Assembly (NCBI RefSeq): GCF_000250985.1
Contig: NW_013524646.1
Coordinates: 774,158-838,157, forward strand
Direction: 5' to 3'
Origin: Nematocida parisii ERTm1
Lineage: Eukaryota; Microsporidia
DNA: 64,000 nucleotides
A program made the position numbers and the translations under genes. Below are positions 6,719-53,883 of the stretch, one piece after another. The notes below the pieces were generated by a model. It had not been told where the DNA came from. It did no database searches and worked only from the letters and a program-made list of their open reading frames with translations. Position 1 is the first letter of the stretch. Each line of letters begins with the position of its first letter.

Positions 6719-8287
6719 TTATATGTAATTATGCCTATTTTGAAGTATATAAATGATGCAGCAACATAGGAATTGTGCATGGCCTGCTTTGGTAAACTTT
6801 TTTTTATCCTCTGAAACCAGTTTTACCTCTGGGCAGGCATTCTGTGCTGTCTTTAGTATAAAATCAACGATTTCTGACTTACTGATTATATTGCACTCTT
6901 CTATATGTAAAAGAATATCACACACAATTTGTTCAAGAGTGTACCTAATAAGAGAGGGGGTCAGTTCTTTTTTAATGTAGCGAATTACTATGTTGTAGAT
7001 TCTAGCCTTGATCCAAATGGCGCTTTTATTATTCATTTCTAACTGAGATACGTGTGTGCTAATTATACTCTTTAAGAAAGAAATGTATGTGTGGAAAACA
7101 GGAGAGAGTTTTTTAAACTCAGCGCAGAAGAAGCAATCTTGATTGGTTTCTGATTCAAACTTTAAAATACTGTTTACAATCTTAATTACTACAGCTAAGT
7201 CAAAGCTAAGGTCTGTGTTAGCAAATATTCTTGCATCCAAGTATGCCCAGGGCACCTCTAAAAGTGGCCTGTATTTTCCAATATTTTTGCTTTCTACAAT
7301 CTCCTCAGATTTGTCAAAGGTCTTCTGCCACTCACTGAATGTGCATGAATTTTCTTCCACACGCTTGCAAATAGTGTATAATTTAGAAGATTTTTCTTTT
7401 TTCTTTATAGATGCTGACTGACTTTTTTCTTTTCTGGTTAGAGTTTTCTGAATTACTGTAGAGAAAAAAGTGTATGCTGAGTATATATGCTTTATCTCAG
7501 ATTTGGCGGTGGTTTTTTCAGATACATTTTTTTCTTCCGTGAATATTTCAGTGAATAGGTTTTTGTCGGAAAGCTTCTTCTTCATATTTATGAAATCTAA
7601 TGCCTTCTTAATAACCTTCTCGTCCTTCTTAATACACTCAATTCGACCAATCTGAGGTTTGCTCATGTAATTTGTGGAAATTCGGAAGAAGGGAGATGCA
7701 TAGATGGAATTTGAGGTATTTTTACCAGAATTCTGGCTGGAAACAAATTTTATATTGTAGTTATTACTGTTCACCAGAGAGATGTATATGTTTCTGAGCT
7801 CCTTGCCAATTCTATTGTAGTCAAAATCTAATATTGCATTCATTAGAGCATTCTTGCTTTCTGAGCTCACAGCAAGCATCTGGGTGGTGTTGAGATATAT
7901 AGCCAGAGAAAGAAGGTCTTCTTTTTCATTGACTTTTTCATCTACATAATGCTCCTGTAGTACATACACTTTGTTTTTTCTGATAAACTTTTTAATTAAG
8001 CCCATACAGTCATTAATCGAGCTGGATACACTCTTTAGAAGTGTTGTTTTAGAGAAGTTATCGTTCTTTTTAAGTAATGATTGGAAAGGACTATTTATTT
8101 TTTCGACGCGCCTTTTTGGTTTATTAGATGCAATAGTTTGGGGAGTCTCTTTTATAATTTCGCATAAAGAAATGGTTGGTTGTTGTGTGCTTGAGTAGTC
8201 TGTAGAGATATCATCCATGCTAGCATACACGCCTGAAGCAATGCAAGCTGCAGTAAAAACTATCTTGTTAATTTTCATGGTCTTCAT
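6719..8287 (-). CDS. Secreted lineage-specific protein with signal peptide
   Basis: The protein has 522 residues. The N-terminus (KINKIVFTAACIASGVYA then SMDD) is a good signal peptide with cleavage expected near residue 22. A basic patch follows (KPKRRVEK, about residues 55-62), which could be a processing or nuclear-localisation signal. The rest is helical, Lys/Ser/Ile-rich, with a Cys-containing hydrophobic C-terminal stretch (AQFLCCCIIYILQN). No family is recognised. The minus-strand promoter has a TATATAAA box about 30 bp before the ATG. The second ATG, three codons in, would serve as well as the first. A host-exported protein is plausible by analogy with other microsporidia but is not shown. 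Confidence 0.75.
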   Translation of the reverse strand: MKTMKINKIVFTAACIASGVYASMDDISTDYSSTQQPTISLCEIIKETPQTIASNKPKRRVEKINSPFQSLLKKNDNFSKTTLLKSVSSSINDCMGLIKKFIRKNKVYVLQEHYVDEKVNEKEDLLSLAIYLNTTQMLAVSSESKNALMNAILDFDYNRIGKELRNIYISLVNSNNYNIKFVSSQNSGKNTSNSIYASPFFRISTNYMSKPQIGRIECIKKDEKVIKKALDFINMKKKLSDKNLFTEIFTEEKNVSEKTTAKSEIKHIYSAYTFFSTVIQKTLTRKEKSQSASIKKKEKSSKLYTICKRVEENSCTFSEWQKTFDKSEEIVESKNIGKYRPLLEVPWAYLDARIFANTDLSFDLAVVIKIVNSILKFESETNQDCFFCAEFKKLSPVFHTYISFLKSIISTHVSQLEMNNKSAIWIKARIYNIVIRYIKKELTPSLIRYTLEQIVCDILLHIEECNIISKSEIVDFILKTAQNACPEVKLVSEDKKKFTKAGHAQFLCCCIIYILQNRHNYI

Positions 8288-8912
8288 TATTTCTGAAATC
8301 CATTCTCTTTATATACAGCAGATGATCTGTTTATTTCTGAAAATTACTGATTTAATGCCTTGTCCAAACAAATAAACAAGGACATTTAGATGGCCAATTA
8401 AGAAAAAATAAACAAATATCTAGAAATATGAATACAGAGGAAATAAATAAAATTAATTAAAAACAGAAATTCACTTTGTCCAAATATAAATAAAGCACTT
8501 TTTATGTGCCACAGGAAGAATTATTATAGATTAATTAAAACAAATTATATTGGTGCATTTTAATATTGGGCACCAAATTATATTATACTGTAAATAATAT
8601 TAAGCACTGCACACTATCTTATTGCATGCAGTTAGATTAAAAAGAGCAAAAGCAATTTTTAATATTGGCAACTACTTTCTAGCACAGAGCAGATTTCACT
8701 TGCTTTATTCTAGTGTAATTATCATTGTATAAAATATATTATTAACATTGTACATAGTATATTCTAATCGCCCATGAAATTGCATGCATAGAATTTTAGG
8801 ATTTCTACATTTAAGGAAATATTTTAGCCCCTGTCTAATGCATATAATAAAGAGTATATCTAATTCAGACTTACTTTCAGATAAAATAATATCTATACTT
8901 TCTATATTAATT

Positions 8913-8960
8913 TTCTACTTGATATAAACTGTTTTAAACCAAAAAAAATTCTACTTGATA
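8913..8960 (+). mobile_element. Poly(A)-ended micro-insertion with 12-bp target-site duplication
   Basis: A 24-nt insert at 8925-8948 reads TAAACTGTTTTAAACC followed by eight A. It is flanked by perfect 12-bp direct repeats TTCTACTTGATA at 8913-8924 and 8949-8960. A matching 3' sequence, also ending in poly(A), occurs at 34542-34569 and 62565-62590 on the opposite strand. Direct repeats plus an A-tail are the signature of target-primed reverse transcription, so this looks like an extremely 5'-truncated retroposed transcript end. Confidence 0.7.
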
Positions 8961-9359
8961 GAATGTCTATACTATAGCATAATAAATCAGAATAGTATAA
9001 GCACATAATGTAAATATAAATAAATCCAGTATAAAAAAACCACAGACTATTTAAAAATACATTCTGACAATTTATAATAATCTGGCCAACAGTACATAGA
9101 AAGAAAAATACTGAAATTAGGCCATTGCAGGAACTACACCCAAACTAAAAACAACAATAAACATGACCACACAATAGAAAGTTATTAAGTTGGCCAATAT
9201 AGCCCAATACTTAATGAGTTAGTGCTGCAGATGGCTATGCATCTAGAGAACAAACAGGCAGGGCACGCCTACATAGTATAAATAAAGAACATGTTATTCT
9301 CTGCGCTATTTATATTTTAGTTAAGTGAACATGAGATATAAGTATAAAATAATTAAAAT

Positions 9360-9369
9360 TTCGGGTTAT
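9360..9369 (+). repeat. TTCGGGTTAT motif copy
   Basis: This exact copy of the recurring 10-mer lies in the gene-poor region. Confidence 0.6.
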
Positions 9370-9576
9370 GTAAAAGAACTTCACTTTATTATAAAAATAA
9401 GCACATTTTGTCTTAAAGAGTTAATCCACAACAGAACAAATCTAAAGTTTTATAAATTGAATACTGCACCTTGTTGGTTTTGGACAGTGAGATATAGAAC
9501 AGTAAACAAATAAATGTTTATATTTGGGATCAGAATTTAACCATACACAAACAAGGCTAGATCAATGATTGGAAGT

Positions 9577-9765
9577 CGTCTATATAAGGACGGCGAGAAT
9601 TCAATAAATAACAAGTTTTCGCATGTCTAAGTCTTTAAGGATAAAACAGCTTACAAATATATTAAAATAAATTAAATATTGGATAAGCATTAACATAATA
9701 TATTTAAAAACCACAAAAGTATGTATAAAGGCCGTGACTTCAATAAATGTTAATTTCTATAAAGA
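9577..9765 (+). promoter_or_regulatory. Pair of similar TATA-containing segments without a clear gene
   Basis: Two segments, beginning near 9581 and 9721, share the pattern TATA box, then a short GC-richer stretch, then TTCAATAAAT. The first is TATATAAGGACGGCGAGAA and the second is TGTATAAAGGCCGTGAC, each followed by the shared TTCAATAAAT. An ATG follows the first but opens only about 15 codons. They look like duplicated core promoters, or remnants of a gene family whose coding parts have decayed. Confidence 0.3.
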
Positions 9766-10653
9766 ATGAATAATTTTAAATTTAACAGCTCATGCTTATA
9801 TTAAAAAGCTTCATATATGTTGAATGATTTAAAGAAAGCCAATATATATAAAACTCTCAAATAATTTTAAATACCAATCATGCTCAACCCGCAGCTTCTT
9901 TGGCATTATACTAATTTTTAATTGCACATATATTTGCACTGTGTATACACGAATAATCATAGAATGCTAAGTGATATATTAACATACTTTATACCGGTGT
10001 TTTGACCTATAAAAGACGTTATTATGCATATTTTCTAGTCAAGTAAGATCTAATTCCAAGTAAATTGGCTTTGTATAGTCTGAAATTAATCTGCCGAGAC
10101 ATTATATTTTCATCTATTAAATAGCAGTAGATTGCCATATAAAAATAATAATTTTTTTACTTTTTGTCTTCCATGCCTGGAATATATTTTTATATGTACA
10201 GAAAATATTATGAGTTACTTTCTGTATACATATTTTATTTTATTGCAGTAAGTAAGTGAGTGAGTGGTAGAAATTACTATTTAATCAACTGTTTATTTAA
10301 ATAAAGTAAGTATGACTAAAAATATTAGTATAACATAGCCACGCAGGTGTCAGATACTATACTAATAAAATATTATAGTATAGCAATAGCTTACTTGAAA
10401 ATATTTAGTGTATCGAACTATGCACTACTAACAATTGGGCAGCTAGTAATTTTAATAGTATATAACAATATGCTATATACAGAATACAATAAAGAAATTA
10501 TAATAAAACATACACGTATTGCAGAAAAATCTACTATATTTACTCACGTATATAAATTTATATTTGTATGATAATGCTATAGTACAAATTATATATAGTG
10601 TATGCACTTCAATTATGCAGTAGTAAGTAGCTCAGGAGAGGTTAAAAGAAAAG

Positions 10654-10715
10654 GCGTCAGATAAAAAAATCATCACATGTCAGACGACCGTCGTGAAAAT
10701 AGTATCATCATACGC
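10654..10715 (-). ncRNA. Box C/D snoRNA, snR73-like (predicted 25S Cm2959 guide)
   Basis: On the minus strand the order is box C ATGATGA (10705-10711), a guide, box D' CTGA (10680-10683), box C' GTGATGA (10670-10676) and box D CTGA (10657-10660), with GCGT/ACGC closing the ends. The guide before D' contains TCACGACGGTC, the exact complement of the universally conserved LSU rRNA segment GACCGTCGTGA. The fifth nucleotide upstream of D' pairs with the first C of that segment, which is E. coli C2590 and yeast C2959, the site methylated by yeast snR73. Box spacing and the target agree with each other. This is the third snoRNA of a cluster. Confidence 0.8.
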
Positions 10716-10726
10716 AGGTTTTTAAA

Positions 10727-10807
10727 AATAGTATAATCAGCCCATTTTAAGTTACAATCACCTAAATTACTCATACTCGTCATCTAAAACCATCATTTTA
10801 TACTATT
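10727..10807 (-). ncRNA. Box C/D snoRNA, snR75-like (predicted 25S Gm2288 guide)
   Basis: A perfect 10-bp terminal stem (AATAGTATAA at the 5' end, TTATACTATT at the 3' end) encloses box C ATGATGG (10790-10796) and box D CTGA (10737-10740). The internal guide AGATGACGAG, with flanking T residues, complements 12 nt of the conserved LSU rRNA sequence CTCGTCATCTAA. With an AUGA-type D' box at 10771-10774, the fifth upstream nucleotide pairs with the G of CTCG, which is E. coli G1945 and yeast G2288, the snR75 site. The D' and C' boxes are degenerate. The D-box guide (AACTTAAAATGGG) has no target I recognise. Confidence 0.75.
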
Positions 10808-10824
10808 TAAGATATTATTTAGAA

Positions 10825-10893
10825 TGTGCTCAGACCTTCAACTCATCATTATCAGAGACTCTAGCCGTGAATAATAGTCATCTTCATAGCACA
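10825..10893 (-). ncRNA. Box C/D snoRNA, snR78-like (predicted 25S Um2421 guide)
   Basis: A 6-bp terminal stem (TGTGCT/AGCACA) encloses box C AAGATGA (10878-10884), box D' CTGA (10852-10855), box C' ATGATGA (10843-10849) and box D CTGA (10830-10833). The guide before D' (CACGGCTAGAGTCT) complements the conserved LSU rRNA GACTCTAG. The fifth nucleotide upstream of D' pairs with the U of GACU, which is E. coli U2079 and yeast U2421, the snR78 site. The universal complement is only 8 nt; the rest of the guide would pair with a variable rRNA stretch not available here. It is the first snoRNA of the cluster. Confidence 0.7.
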
Positions 10894-10910
10894 GGGGATA
10901 AAAAATAAAA

Positions 10911-10920
10911 TTTATTTATA
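10911..10920 (-). promoter_or_regulatory. TATA box of the snoRNA cluster
   Basis: On the minus strand TATAAATAAA begins 27 nt before the inferred 5' end of the first snoRNA (10893), the distance expected between a TATA box and a start site. No other TATA box is needed for the two downstream snoRNAs, whose spacers are 17 and 11 nt, so a single polycistronic transcript is likely. Confidence 0.5.
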
Positions 10921-11284
10921 CTAGAAAATACTAAAAAGTAACGGGTAAAGAAATCCTATTAAAGGCAGTAGACTACACACAGATAATACGTATGCTCATA
11001 CATAGCTTGAAATTTAGCTTGACTTTAAGCAGAATTATGCGGCGAAAAAAGAAAACAATGCACATGAGGGGGTGCAATTAGCAATTATGGCACATACCAG
11101 AAGGCAGGGATTGGGGTGGATGTTTTAATCGGCTTAGAGCCTTAAAAATATATATCTAGTGTTTATTGTTTCATTATTTGGTAGAATTACAATAGACTGC
11201 TATTTTATTTAGTCTGTTCTGCACCATGCAGGTATTTAGATGGGCTTATGGATTGTTATATCTATTGCAATTAAGCATATGGAG
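10921..11284. other. Intergenic region upstream of the snoRNA cluster
   Basis: There is no ORF of note. It contains a GC-richer stretch with small hairpins near 11060-11150, including GGCTTAGAGCC at 11131-11141. I could not match it to a known RNA. It separates the snoRNA promoter from the 3' end of BRCA2. Confidence 0.4.
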
Positions 11285-12940
11285 TTATATTGGGCGGAAT
11301 GTGCTTATTGTGGTAGTTGTTAATAGAATTGTACCTTTGCTCAGCGCCTTCTTAGGAGGAGACAGCATAAAGAATAGGTATAGCTGGTTTGTCTTCAGTG
11401 TATTATCGCTGTAGGCCGGCTCCCATATGGAAAGTATTGCAGGCGTGGTATTCTTTGTGTAATCACAGATTACATCATATCTGGTGTACTTTCTTAGCCG
11501 CACTTTGCTCAGAGCATCGTTCTTTTCCTCAGCTGTAGTGTATATCTTCTCAATGCTTTTTTCAATTCTTTCAAGGGTGCTGTCCAATCTATCTTCTTCA
11601 ATATTTGACTTTGACCCATTTAGGTCTAAAATATATCTGACGTCTATTTTTCTAGCTATTTTCAGCATAAGGCAGCTGATGTATCCTCCATTCGGGTGGA
11701 TTGACAGAATAGACCGAATAAATCCAAAGTGGCTTTGGTATCCAAGAGGACCAGAAGAGCATGGCTTAACTCCATTATACTGCAGCTCAATCACTGCTTG
11801 GCTATTTTTGTTTACATCGTATATTGAAGTGGCATCAGATAGAAGGGACTTTGAGCATGCGACCTGCAGAATTTTTCCTTCTGTGATTTGATTAGAAATC
11901 TTTTGCAGCGGCAGGTCTAGCTGAGCCTTAACTGAATATATGCCGTCTGTTATCATAATTGTATTTGTTCCCCCTTCAATCACAAGGACCTTTATATACA
12001 CAGATGGGTGCTCGTCCTTTTCCACAATTCTTTGCAGCACAGACTTTGGGTTTTGCTTCCATCGGATTTTTGCTTTTTCAATAACTATTCTTTCAACTTC
12101 TTTAAACTGCATGTCTCCGCCCCTCCTAAAAATTTCCTTTATTTGGGGAAGTACAGAGATCCAGGTCCATTGAAAAAGAGAAAAAAGACTGTACTCCTCC
12201 TCCTCAGATCTGGTCAGAGGAAATATCTCTTTTTTTACTTTTTTGTATATCTCTAGTGCATCTATAATATAGTTCTCCCGGGGAGAAATAACTTTAGGCT
12301 TTAACTTAGCTGCAGAGGGGGCTGCAGTCTGGGTATAGCTCTCCATAAAGCCAAAGCTGCGCCTAGACCTATCCATGCACTCATCAGAAATGTACAAACT
12401 ACTACCATGAGCTGTTTTAAAGCCCGTTAATTTTGTGAATGATGTGTTTGCAGTAGGAATGTTCTCTTCATTGAACAGGCTCCCCATCTCATTAGATTTC
12501 TCTCCATTTCCCGTTTCTGAAAAAGGCCTTTTTCTCTGAAACGTGCCAGTGCCTATGTCTAGACTGTCATCCGGATCTAATAGCTCAGGCCGCCCCGAGT
12601 CTGTTTTATATTTTCCACCTCTTTTTGGGGGAGAAGGGAACTTAATTTCTTTGAAAAGAATCTTATCTGCCAGATCTTTATTAATTGGTTTAGTAGCTGG
12701 AAATGGCCCTTGCTTTATGTCGTTATAGAAGGATTCATCGGGGTCAACAGAGAATCTATAGCTTTTGTCTTCCACCTGAAAAGATCCATCAAGCCCATTG
12801 TCTGGGGATGTTTGAACTTCTTGTATGGGGGCTTCTTTTGAAATAGAAATATTTGTTTTAAGAAGCCCTTCGCTATCCATGAGAATCTGTGAAATTTCTG
12901 AAGATGGCGGAGTATTATTCTCCTTTTTGCTTGGCCGCAT
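11285..12940 (-). CDS. BRCA2: BRCA2 homologue with one BRC repeat and OB1-OB2 DNA-binding domain
   Basis: BRCA2 loads Rad51 on single-stranded DNA during homologous recombination. The 551-residue protein keeps the family order in miniature. One BRC repeat lies at about 173-198 (FKTAHG ... MDRSRRSF) and matches the spacing of human BRC4 from the FxTA motif to the second Phe. A helical domain follows at about 245-312 (FQWTWISVLPQIKE; SVLQRIVEKDEHPS). The OB1 fold contains the hallmark ITDGIYSVKAQLDLPL (about 330-345) and GPLGYQSHFGF. OB2 contains ILSIWEPAYSD, equivalent to human ILSIWRP, after a much shortened tower. No OB3 is evident. Fungal Brh2 is comparably reduced. It is flanked downstream by the snoRNA region and upstream by tRNA-Leu. 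Confidence 0.88.
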   Translation of the reverse strand: MRPSKKENNTPPSSEISQILMDSEGLLKTNISISKEAPIQEVQTSPDNGLDGSFQVEDKSYRFSVDPDESFYNDIKQGPFPATKPINKDLADKILFKEIKFPSPPKRGGKYKTDSGRPELLDPDDSLDIGTGTFQRKRPFSETGNGEKSNEMGSLFNEENIPTANTSFTKLTGFKTAHGSSLYISDECMDRSRRSFGFMESYTQTAAPSAAKLKPKVISPRENYIIDALEIYKKVKKEIFPLTRSEEEEYSLFSLFQWTWISVLPQIKEIFRRGGDMQFKEVERIVIEKAKIRWKQNPKSVLQRIVEKDEHPSVYIKVLVIEGGTNTIMITDGIYSVKAQLDLPLQKISNQITEGKILQVACSKSLLSDATSIYDVNKNSQAVIELQYNGVKPCSSGPLGYQSHFGFIRSILSIHPNGGYISCLMLKIARKIDVRYILDLNGSKSNIEEDRLDSTLERIEKSIEKIYTTAEEKNDALSKVRLRKYTRYDVICDYTKNTTPAILSIWEPAYSDNTLKTNQLYLFFMLSPPKKALSKGTILLTTTTISTFRPI

Positions 12941-51680: not shown

Positions 51681-51744
51681 GTTTTCAGAGTAACTATGAC
51701 TTCAAATCCTACTAAGGCCGAGTTAAAGCTTTTCATCATTAAAC
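51681..51744 (-). ncRNA. Box C/D snoRNA, snR63-like (predicted 25S Am2256 guide)
   Basis: On the minus strand GTTT pairs with AAAC at the ends. Box C is ATGATGA (51733-51739) and box D is CTGA (51685-51688). The guide before D, GTCATAGTTACT with one more base, complements 13 nt of the conserved LSU rRNA AGTAACTATGACT. The fifth upstream nucleotide pairs with the second A of GUAAC, E. coli A1913 and yeast A2256, the snR63 site. It lies within the 133-bp gap between cyclin and SUMO, antisense to both. Confidence 0.8.
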
Positions 51745-53582: not shown

Positions 53583-53653
53583 GCAGCTCGATGAATATTA
53601 GACAGAAGAAATTATATATAAAAGAGTATGTGGAGAGTAGTCTGAATTAAGTT

Positions 53654-53770
53654 ATGGACGTACACATTGGCCCACCTTTCGATTTGACTATCCGGCTAGC
53701 ACCAGCCATCTCAACTGTACAGAGTACAGGAACAATTTCTGGTCAGCTGGCACGTAAGGTTTCCCTTTGA
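53654..53770 (+). CDS. Small ORF behind a TATA box, possibly first exon of a split gene
   Basis: A TATATAAAAG at 53615-53624 precedes an ATG by about 30 bp. The 38-codon ORF (GPPFDLTIRLAPAISTVQST) is clearly GC-richer than its surroundings, so it looks genuine. A possible 5' splice site (GTAAGG at 53755) could join it to an open frame downstream (LPKDISTSIESFHLL). Function is unknown. Confidence 0.3.
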   Translation: MDVHIGPPFDLTIRLAPAISTVQSTGTISGQLARKVSL

Positions 53771-53883
53771 TTATTTCAATCTGTGCATGGCTACTCTCAG
53801 ACCTTCCTAAAGATATTTCTACCTCTATCGAAAGCTTCCACCTACTACAAGGGATAAAATATTTTAAAGTAAAAATAAAAAGT

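Follow-up and report, generated by a model that had tools for sequence, protein, structure and literature searches.

A predicted array of three box C/D snoRNA genes in Nematocida parisii resembling a shortened fungal snoRNA cluster I

The closest described system is fungal C/D snoRNA cluster I, snR78-77-76-75-74-73-72, which is reported from nearly all analysed fungi, spanning Asco-, Basidio- and Zygomycota (PMC3596301). In some Basidiomycota, snR78, snR75 and snR72 are described as having moved out of the cluster, and the word microsporidia does not occur in that paper's passages on cluster I (PMC3596301). The Neurospora homologues of snR78, snR75 and snR73 are all described as guiding from D' (PMC2780460). 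In Rfam, SNORD52 and snR78 belong to clan CL00063, snR75 to CL00045, and RF00328 and snR73 to CL00056 (PMC3511168). None of the titles in the literature listings we searched reports cluster I in a microsporidian, from which we claim no absence from print.

We analysed a locus of the microsporidian Nematocida parisii ERTm1; the window, meaning the whole stretch of DNA analysed, is 64,000 nt long and corresponds to positions 774158-838157 of contig C1. In this window, the minus strand carries three predicted box C/D snoRNA genes, arranged head to tail within 240 nt at 10,654-10,893 (Table 1). A first-pass annotation of the same DNA had described three minus-strand units with C/D boxes and complementary ends, behind a TATA box, and all of these were found. 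It had also given the spacing as 17 and 11 nt; the spacers are present, and with the stems counted their lengths come close to those values. The order that it had read as that of yeast, snR78...75...73, matches the order of cluster I on one strand (PMC3596301). We infer descent from fungal cluster I, and consider it very probable that the array is a shortened, vertically inherited copy of that cluster, forming one polycistron with probable Pol II transcription and exonuclease trimming.

Table 1 Predicted features of the Nematocida array and of two further C/D candidates.
Feature	Position	Strand	Length	Sequence and remarks
Putative core promoter	10913..10920	minus		TATAAATA; 19 nt upstream of unit 1
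Unit 1, predicted C/D snoRNA, snR78/U52 family	10825..10893	minus	69 nt	
Unit 1 box C	10881-10887	minus		ATGAAGA
Unit 1 D' guide and D' box	10852..10864	minus		CTAGAGTCT + CTGA (10852-10855); predicted target AGACUCUAG, U predicted to be methylated
Unit 1 C'	10843-10849	minus		ATGATGA
Unit 1 box D	10830-10833	minus		CTGA
Unit 1 terminal stem		minus	5 bp	TGTGC/GCACA
Spacer 1	10806..10824	minus	19 nt	A/T-rich, without a hairpin of its own
Unit 2, predicted C/D snoRNA, snR75 family	10729..10805	minus	77 nt	
Unit 2 box C	10790-10796	minus		ATGATGG
Unit 2 D' guide and D' box	10771..10787	minus		TTAGATGACGAG + ATGA (10771-10774); predicted target CUCGUCAUCUAA, G predicted to be methylated
Unit 2 box D	10737-10740	minus		CTGA
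Unit 2 terminal stem		minus	8 bp	TAGTATAA/TTATACTA
Spacer 2	10716..10728	minus	13 nt	TTTTTAAAAACCT; no hairpin on its own
Unit 3, predicted C/D snoRNA, snR73/U35 family	10654..10715	minus	62 nt	
Unit 3 box C	10705-10711	minus		ATGATGA
Unit 3 D' guide and D' box	10680..10696	minus		TCACGACGGTC-GT + CTGA (10680-10683); predicted target GACCGUCGUGA, first C of CC predicted to be methylated
Unit 3 C'	10670-10676	minus		GTGATGA
Unit 3 box D	10657-10660	minus		CTGA
Unit 3 terminal stem		minus	3 bp	GCG/CGC
Possible 3' end region	10644..10652	minus		TTTTCTTTT; directly after unit 3
Fourth C/D candidate	51685-51739	minus		Perfect box C, 6-bp stem, D guide AGTCATAGTTACT
C/D candidate, L029 1478-1541	genome C2:82261-82347	plus		snR79 guide block ACUACAACGGU (ACUACAACGG)

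A stretch of 2.4 kb (8288-10650) contains no ORF of at least 100 aa, and beyond the array Rfam gave nothing convincing in it; a gap of this size is large for a compact microsporidian genome. The gene adjoining the array (11,285-12,940, minus strand) encodes a BRCA2-OB1 domain, and its product shares 97% identity with a Nematocida sp. AWRm78 protein. The viral contigs searched held no relative of the downstream gene. Elsewhere in the window lie a GAPDH gene with 86% identity to Nematocida ausubeli and 81% to N. minor, and a nuclear RNase P RNA (53626-53845, minus strand; Rfam E 5.5e-18).

In C/D snoRNAs, the k-turn has a 3-nt bulge beside the terminal stem. All three units show this geometry, with 1 nt between stem and box C and 0 nt between box D and stem; box C carries one mismatch each in units 1 and 2, and boxes D, guide cores and k-turn geometry are intact in every unit. 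We scanned the 3,010-nt region at 8,281-11,290 for k-turns (box C with at most one mismatch, CTGA, a stem of at least 3 bp and a 3-nt bulge): the three matches were the three units, and no further k-turn unit was found there. In 400 dinucleotide shuffles of the region, the mean was 0.21 matches; three matches arose in 1/400, and two per 260-nt cluster in 0/400. In the whole window, the total of 11 k-turn matches is not above its 20 shuffles (2-12), whereas the clustering is, the largest cluster being a single match in 20/20 whole-window shuffles.

C/D boxes alone are little proof. A looser C/D scan gave 29 matches in the window and missed unit 3, because its stem is shorter than 4 bp. Folding energy does not set units 1 and 2 apart from shuffles (z 0.06 and -0.64, respectively); for unit 3, z was -3.04, with 1/200 shuffles equally good. 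Each guide string, taken from the window itself, is found there once and in 0/100 shuffles. For the 11-mer and 12-mer guides, about 0.5 chance occurrences each are expected in 3.98 Mb, so the guides alone are not decisive; it is the coincidence of evidence that decides. A crude estimate, with strand and order not counted, gives a probability of about 1e-6 that both other families would land within 260 nt of unit 3.

To the units the first-pass annotation had given the identities snR78, snR75 and snR73. Rfam models of the right clans do match units 1, 2 and 3, all below threshold. A permissive scan of the whole window with 4,227 families produced 11 matches at E up to 10; four were to snoRNA families, and 4/4 fell in the array (SNORD52 was absent from these at the whole-window search size). 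On the 3-kb region, unit 3 matched snoZ161/228 at E 0.0075, unit 2 snR75 at E 0.12 and unit 1 SNORD52 at E 0.53. Their scores of 29.6 (snoZ161_228), 22.1 (snR75) and 20.1 bits (SNORD52) compare with gathering cut-offs of 45, 40 and 45; none passes, and at these curated cut-offs all three units were missed in the window. Across the 3.98-Mb genome, unit 3 ranked first of four matches to RF00328 (E 0.0023; 55 of 1027 candidates scored). For RF01185, unit 2 ranked first of seven with a partial match of 16.9 bits (E 0.019; 56 of 604 candidates scored), and for RF00276, unit 1 was second of eight (E 0.167) to a 26-nt match with E 0.159 (64 of 1729 scored).

A weak Rfam match alone means little, because prokaryote control genomes give such matches too: at E up to 10, RF00328 matched 10/14 of them, RF01185 8/14 and RF00276 14/14, with none over the cut-off. 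A 121-base stretch around unit 1 gave 21 Rfam matches at E up to 10, among which SNORD52 (20.1 bits, E 0.021) has rivals in SNORD18 (20.2 bits) and sR14 (E 0.014). SNORD52 stands out among them by its identical predicted guide and D' block: CUAGAGUCUCUGAUA, the guide core with its D' box, is the same in unit 1 and in the SNORD52 consensus. By guide and rank, we describe the units as putative divergent homologues, not as Rfam members.

The guides could be paired only with the LSU of other organisms, because no rDNA was found in the assembly. Among its 3,978,357 bases (11 contigs), the microsporidian SSU family had no match (63 candidates, 5 scored; 9/14 controls matched), LSU fragment L001 had none in a search run without a positive control, AGACCGTCGTGAGA had none, and CTCGTCATCTAA was present as the window copy only. 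The sarcin-ricin string at up to one mismatch gave seven scattered matches in the assembly, none of them exact, and its reversed control gave 35. Since the LSU and SSU searches found none, the 11-contig assembly most likely lacks rDNA.

As test fragments we used eukaryotic pieces from contaminated public contigs, that is, LSU of other organisms. L001, the sole fragment from a viral-contig scan for eukaryotic LSU, is eukaryotic LSU by Rfam at gathering score; two other LSU patterns had no match in the viral contigs scanned. The 28S-like ends of L014-L017 came from a pattern search and are not listed by Rfam at gathering score; 4/4 carry CTCGTCATCTAA, and all four are identical around the unit 2 site. 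These are bacterial MAG contigs in which the 28S-like end is joined to other sequence at nearly one point, as expected of an rDNA-inserted retroelement of the R1/R2 type.

The D' guide of unit 2 forms 12 uninterrupted Watson-Crick pairs with CTCGTCATCTAA (28S-like fragment, end of L014). With GACCGTCGTGAGA of L001, the D' guide of unit 3 forms 11 Watson-Crick pairs, followed by a G-U and a further pair. On these LSU fragments, the fifth base from D' is G for unit 2 and C for unit 3, and by eye the two align with E. coli G1945 and A2590, sites that we take to be the yeast Gm2288 and Cm2959 positions. Against the target implied by SNORD52, the D' guide of unit 1 forms nine Watson-Crick pairs, one G-U and one more pair, the fifth base being U; against a yeast sequence, it forms eight pairs and two G-U. 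The earlier assignment of U, G and C as the bases picked five from D' thus held for G and C on other eukaryotes' LSU fragments, and for U only on the SNORD52-implied target. With E. coli 23S as a substitute, pairing was chance-like for units 1 and 2, and the unit 3 site gave a 10-base run including wobble. In viral contigs, the predicted unit 1 target had 10 matches, and no relative of the snR75 guide was found in those searched. In the LSU of Nematocida itself, we would expect AGACUCUAGCC (unit 1), CUCGUCAUCUAA (unit 2) and GACCGUCGUGA (unit 3) at the places homologous to Um2421, Gm2288 and Cm2959.

The string ahead of unit 1, TATAAATA, is likely a core promoter string in Nematocida. It occurs 26 times in the window, where 10.5 copies would be expected, and it lies within 60 nt upstream, on the same strand, of 5/31 ORFs (36 listed, 5 shadow ORFs dropped) as compared to 1.1% of random positions; these five copies sit 12-34 nt upstream of the ATG. 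The enrichment upstream of ORFs, together with the copy ahead of unit 1, suggests an ordinary Pol II start near that copy. Pol III transcription was considered and rejected on T-runs of 4, 5, 4 and 7 inside the array.

The genome encodes fibrillarin (E 8e-103) and two Nop-domain proteins (E 1.8e-72 and 8.8e-66), and the methylation machinery appears largely encoded, with Snu13 presumed. No third Nop-domain protein that could be Prp31 was seen genome-wide, consistent with spliceosome loss. The RNase III domain PF00636 had no match in the genome at E up to 1, in a search that matched 8/14 control genomes and that a divergent copy could escape. In yeast, Rat1 and RNase III reportedly release cluster I (Qu 1999, as cited in PMC5934358). 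With spacers of 13-19 nt and no RNase III domain detected, the Rnt1 route of yeast looks unavailable in Nematocida. Neither spacer folds alone. When 20 nt of flanking sequence are included at either end, spacer 1 is less well folded than its shuffles (z 2.06), and spacer 2 gives a 53-nt hairpin (10,696-10,748, minus strand; -8.9 kcal/mol, z -3.10, 1/200 shuffles equally good). Spacer 2 is the loop of this hairpin, and its stem extends into the two neighbouring units. Because box D of unit 2 and box C of unit 3 are used in it, the hairpin is in competition with the snoRNP fold. The hairpin might be a by-product or a processing signal.

The transcription, processing and methylation that we infer for the array would run as follows. 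A single Pol II transcript would begin near the TATA box, and Snu13, Nop56/58 and fibrillarin would assemble on each k-turn. Each D' guide would pair with LSU rRNA, where the fifth base from D' would receive 2'-O-methylation: the U in GACUCUAG, the G in CUCGUC and the first C of GACCGUCG. Given spacers shorter than 20 nt and the failure to detect an RNase III domain, we propose that the units would be freed by cutting or exonuclease entry in these short A/T-rich spacers, with trimming stopping at the protected snoRNPs. The array would then be an ancient fungal polycistron kept without introns or detectable RNase III and released neither by splicing nor by an Rnt1-type enzyme but by a third route, in which spacers of less than 20 nt are cleaved or entered by exonucleases and trimming runs up to the snoRNP-protected k-turns. 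We offer this release route tentatively and judge it somewhat less probable than its opposite; the hairpin that spans spacer 2 lowers its probability slightly.

A wider k-turn scan for units of 45-100 nt covered 267,087 bases, made up of the window, a further 200 kb from contig C1, and locus L029, which entered through the RF00328 search. It gave 13 matches, and among the seven listed (perfect box C or a stem of at least 4) five lie outside long open frames: the three units, the candidate at 51,685-51,739 and the one in L029. The D guide of the 51,685 candidate makes 13 pairs with the universal LSU sequence AGUAACUAUGACU, a site that would fit yeast Am2256 (snR63/U46). Its Rfam match to snR63 is weak (E 1.1, one of 18 matches, with snoR38 best by bits), and the window Rfam scan at gathering cut-offs missed it. 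On a 141-base stretch with the L029 candidate, Rfam gave snR79 at E 0.037 and, nearly as good, SNORD24 at E 0.04.

Could C/D-like motifs in A/T-rich DNA merely resemble these guides by accident? The 29 loose matches in the window, and the prokaryote controls that Rfam models weakly match as well, speak for such an origin, but family ranks, guide strings and clustering all coincide in the array, and we regard accident as exceedingly improbable. The array might instead be a decayed relic, neither expressed nor functional, a reading to which the mismatches in two boxes C, the sub-threshold Rfam scores and the competing hairpin across spacer 2 would all lend themselves. Against decay stand the intact guide cores, three boxes D and k-turn geometry, the genes for fibrillarin and two Nop-domain proteins in the same genome, and the presence of two further C/D candidates; we consider a relic very unlikely.

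Two other explanations accept the snoRNAs and differ in how they came together or are transcribed. If each unit had its own promoter, the locus would be a gene cluster and no polycistron; yet promoters would hardly fit into spacers of 19 and 13 nt, and between 10,654 and 11,285 the minus strand has TATAAATA only ahead of unit 1, which makes separate promoters highly improbable. Alternatively, three real snoRNAs could have become linked separately by reshuffling and not through an ancestral cluster. The spacers, far shorter than those of yeast, fit such an origin, as do the reported movement of snoRNA genes within genomes (PMC3511168; PMC8476143) and the departure of snR78, snR75 and snR72 from cluster I in some Basidiomycota (PMC3596301). 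Separate linkage would, however, have had to reproduce the relative order and strand described for cluster I in nearly all fungi analysed (PMC3596301), and no other k-turn unit is mixed into the array. We think it unlikely, and prefer inheritance of a shortened cluster I.

If that inheritance is true, the snR78-75-73 order is older than the divergence between microsporidia and the other fungi, and three core LSU sites kept their guided rRNA methylation through extreme genome reduction. The array would also offer a natural example of a snoRNA polycistron that is processed with, apparently, neither RNase III nor introns. Named nucleotides are now predicted in a nematode parasite described as growable in C. 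elegans (PMC10393165). Because curated cut-offs missed all three units in the window, microsporidian C/D snoRNA catalogues based on such Rfam cut-offs may be underestimates.

How, then, does the array compare with the known families and with the cluster itself? Unit 1 shares CUAGAGUCUCUGAUA with the SNORD52/snoR37/snR78 group (CL00063); beyond this core the SNORD52 model reads CA-GACUAGAG whereas unit 1 reads CACGGCUAGAG, a guide change that would predict AGACUCUAGCCGUG in the LSU of Nematocida. With snR75 (RF01185, CL00045), unit 2 shares the guide UUUUAGAUGACGAGU followed by D'; its D' box is ATGA, and the likeness lies mainly in guide and D'. The UCACGACGGUCGU-CUGA guide of unit 3 is identical to the RF00328 consensus of the snR73/U35/snoZ161_228 group (CL00056), but the model has 93 positions and unit 3 only 62 nt, with a terminal stem of only 3 bp. 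An intronic form of the cluster is not expected in N. parisii, since the species is described as devoid of introns (PMC8476143).

Cluster I has seven members and only three were found in the Nematocida gap, where a search with 10-mers detected no snR74- or snR77-like guides. The Nematocida array has spacers of 13-19 nt and a genome in which no RNase III domain was found, unlike the Rnt1-served cluster of yeast. With cluster I it shares three families, their relative order, a single strand and the D' guides. Judged on these sequences, the array appears to be a divergent but convincing relative of the known snoRNA families and of their cluster.
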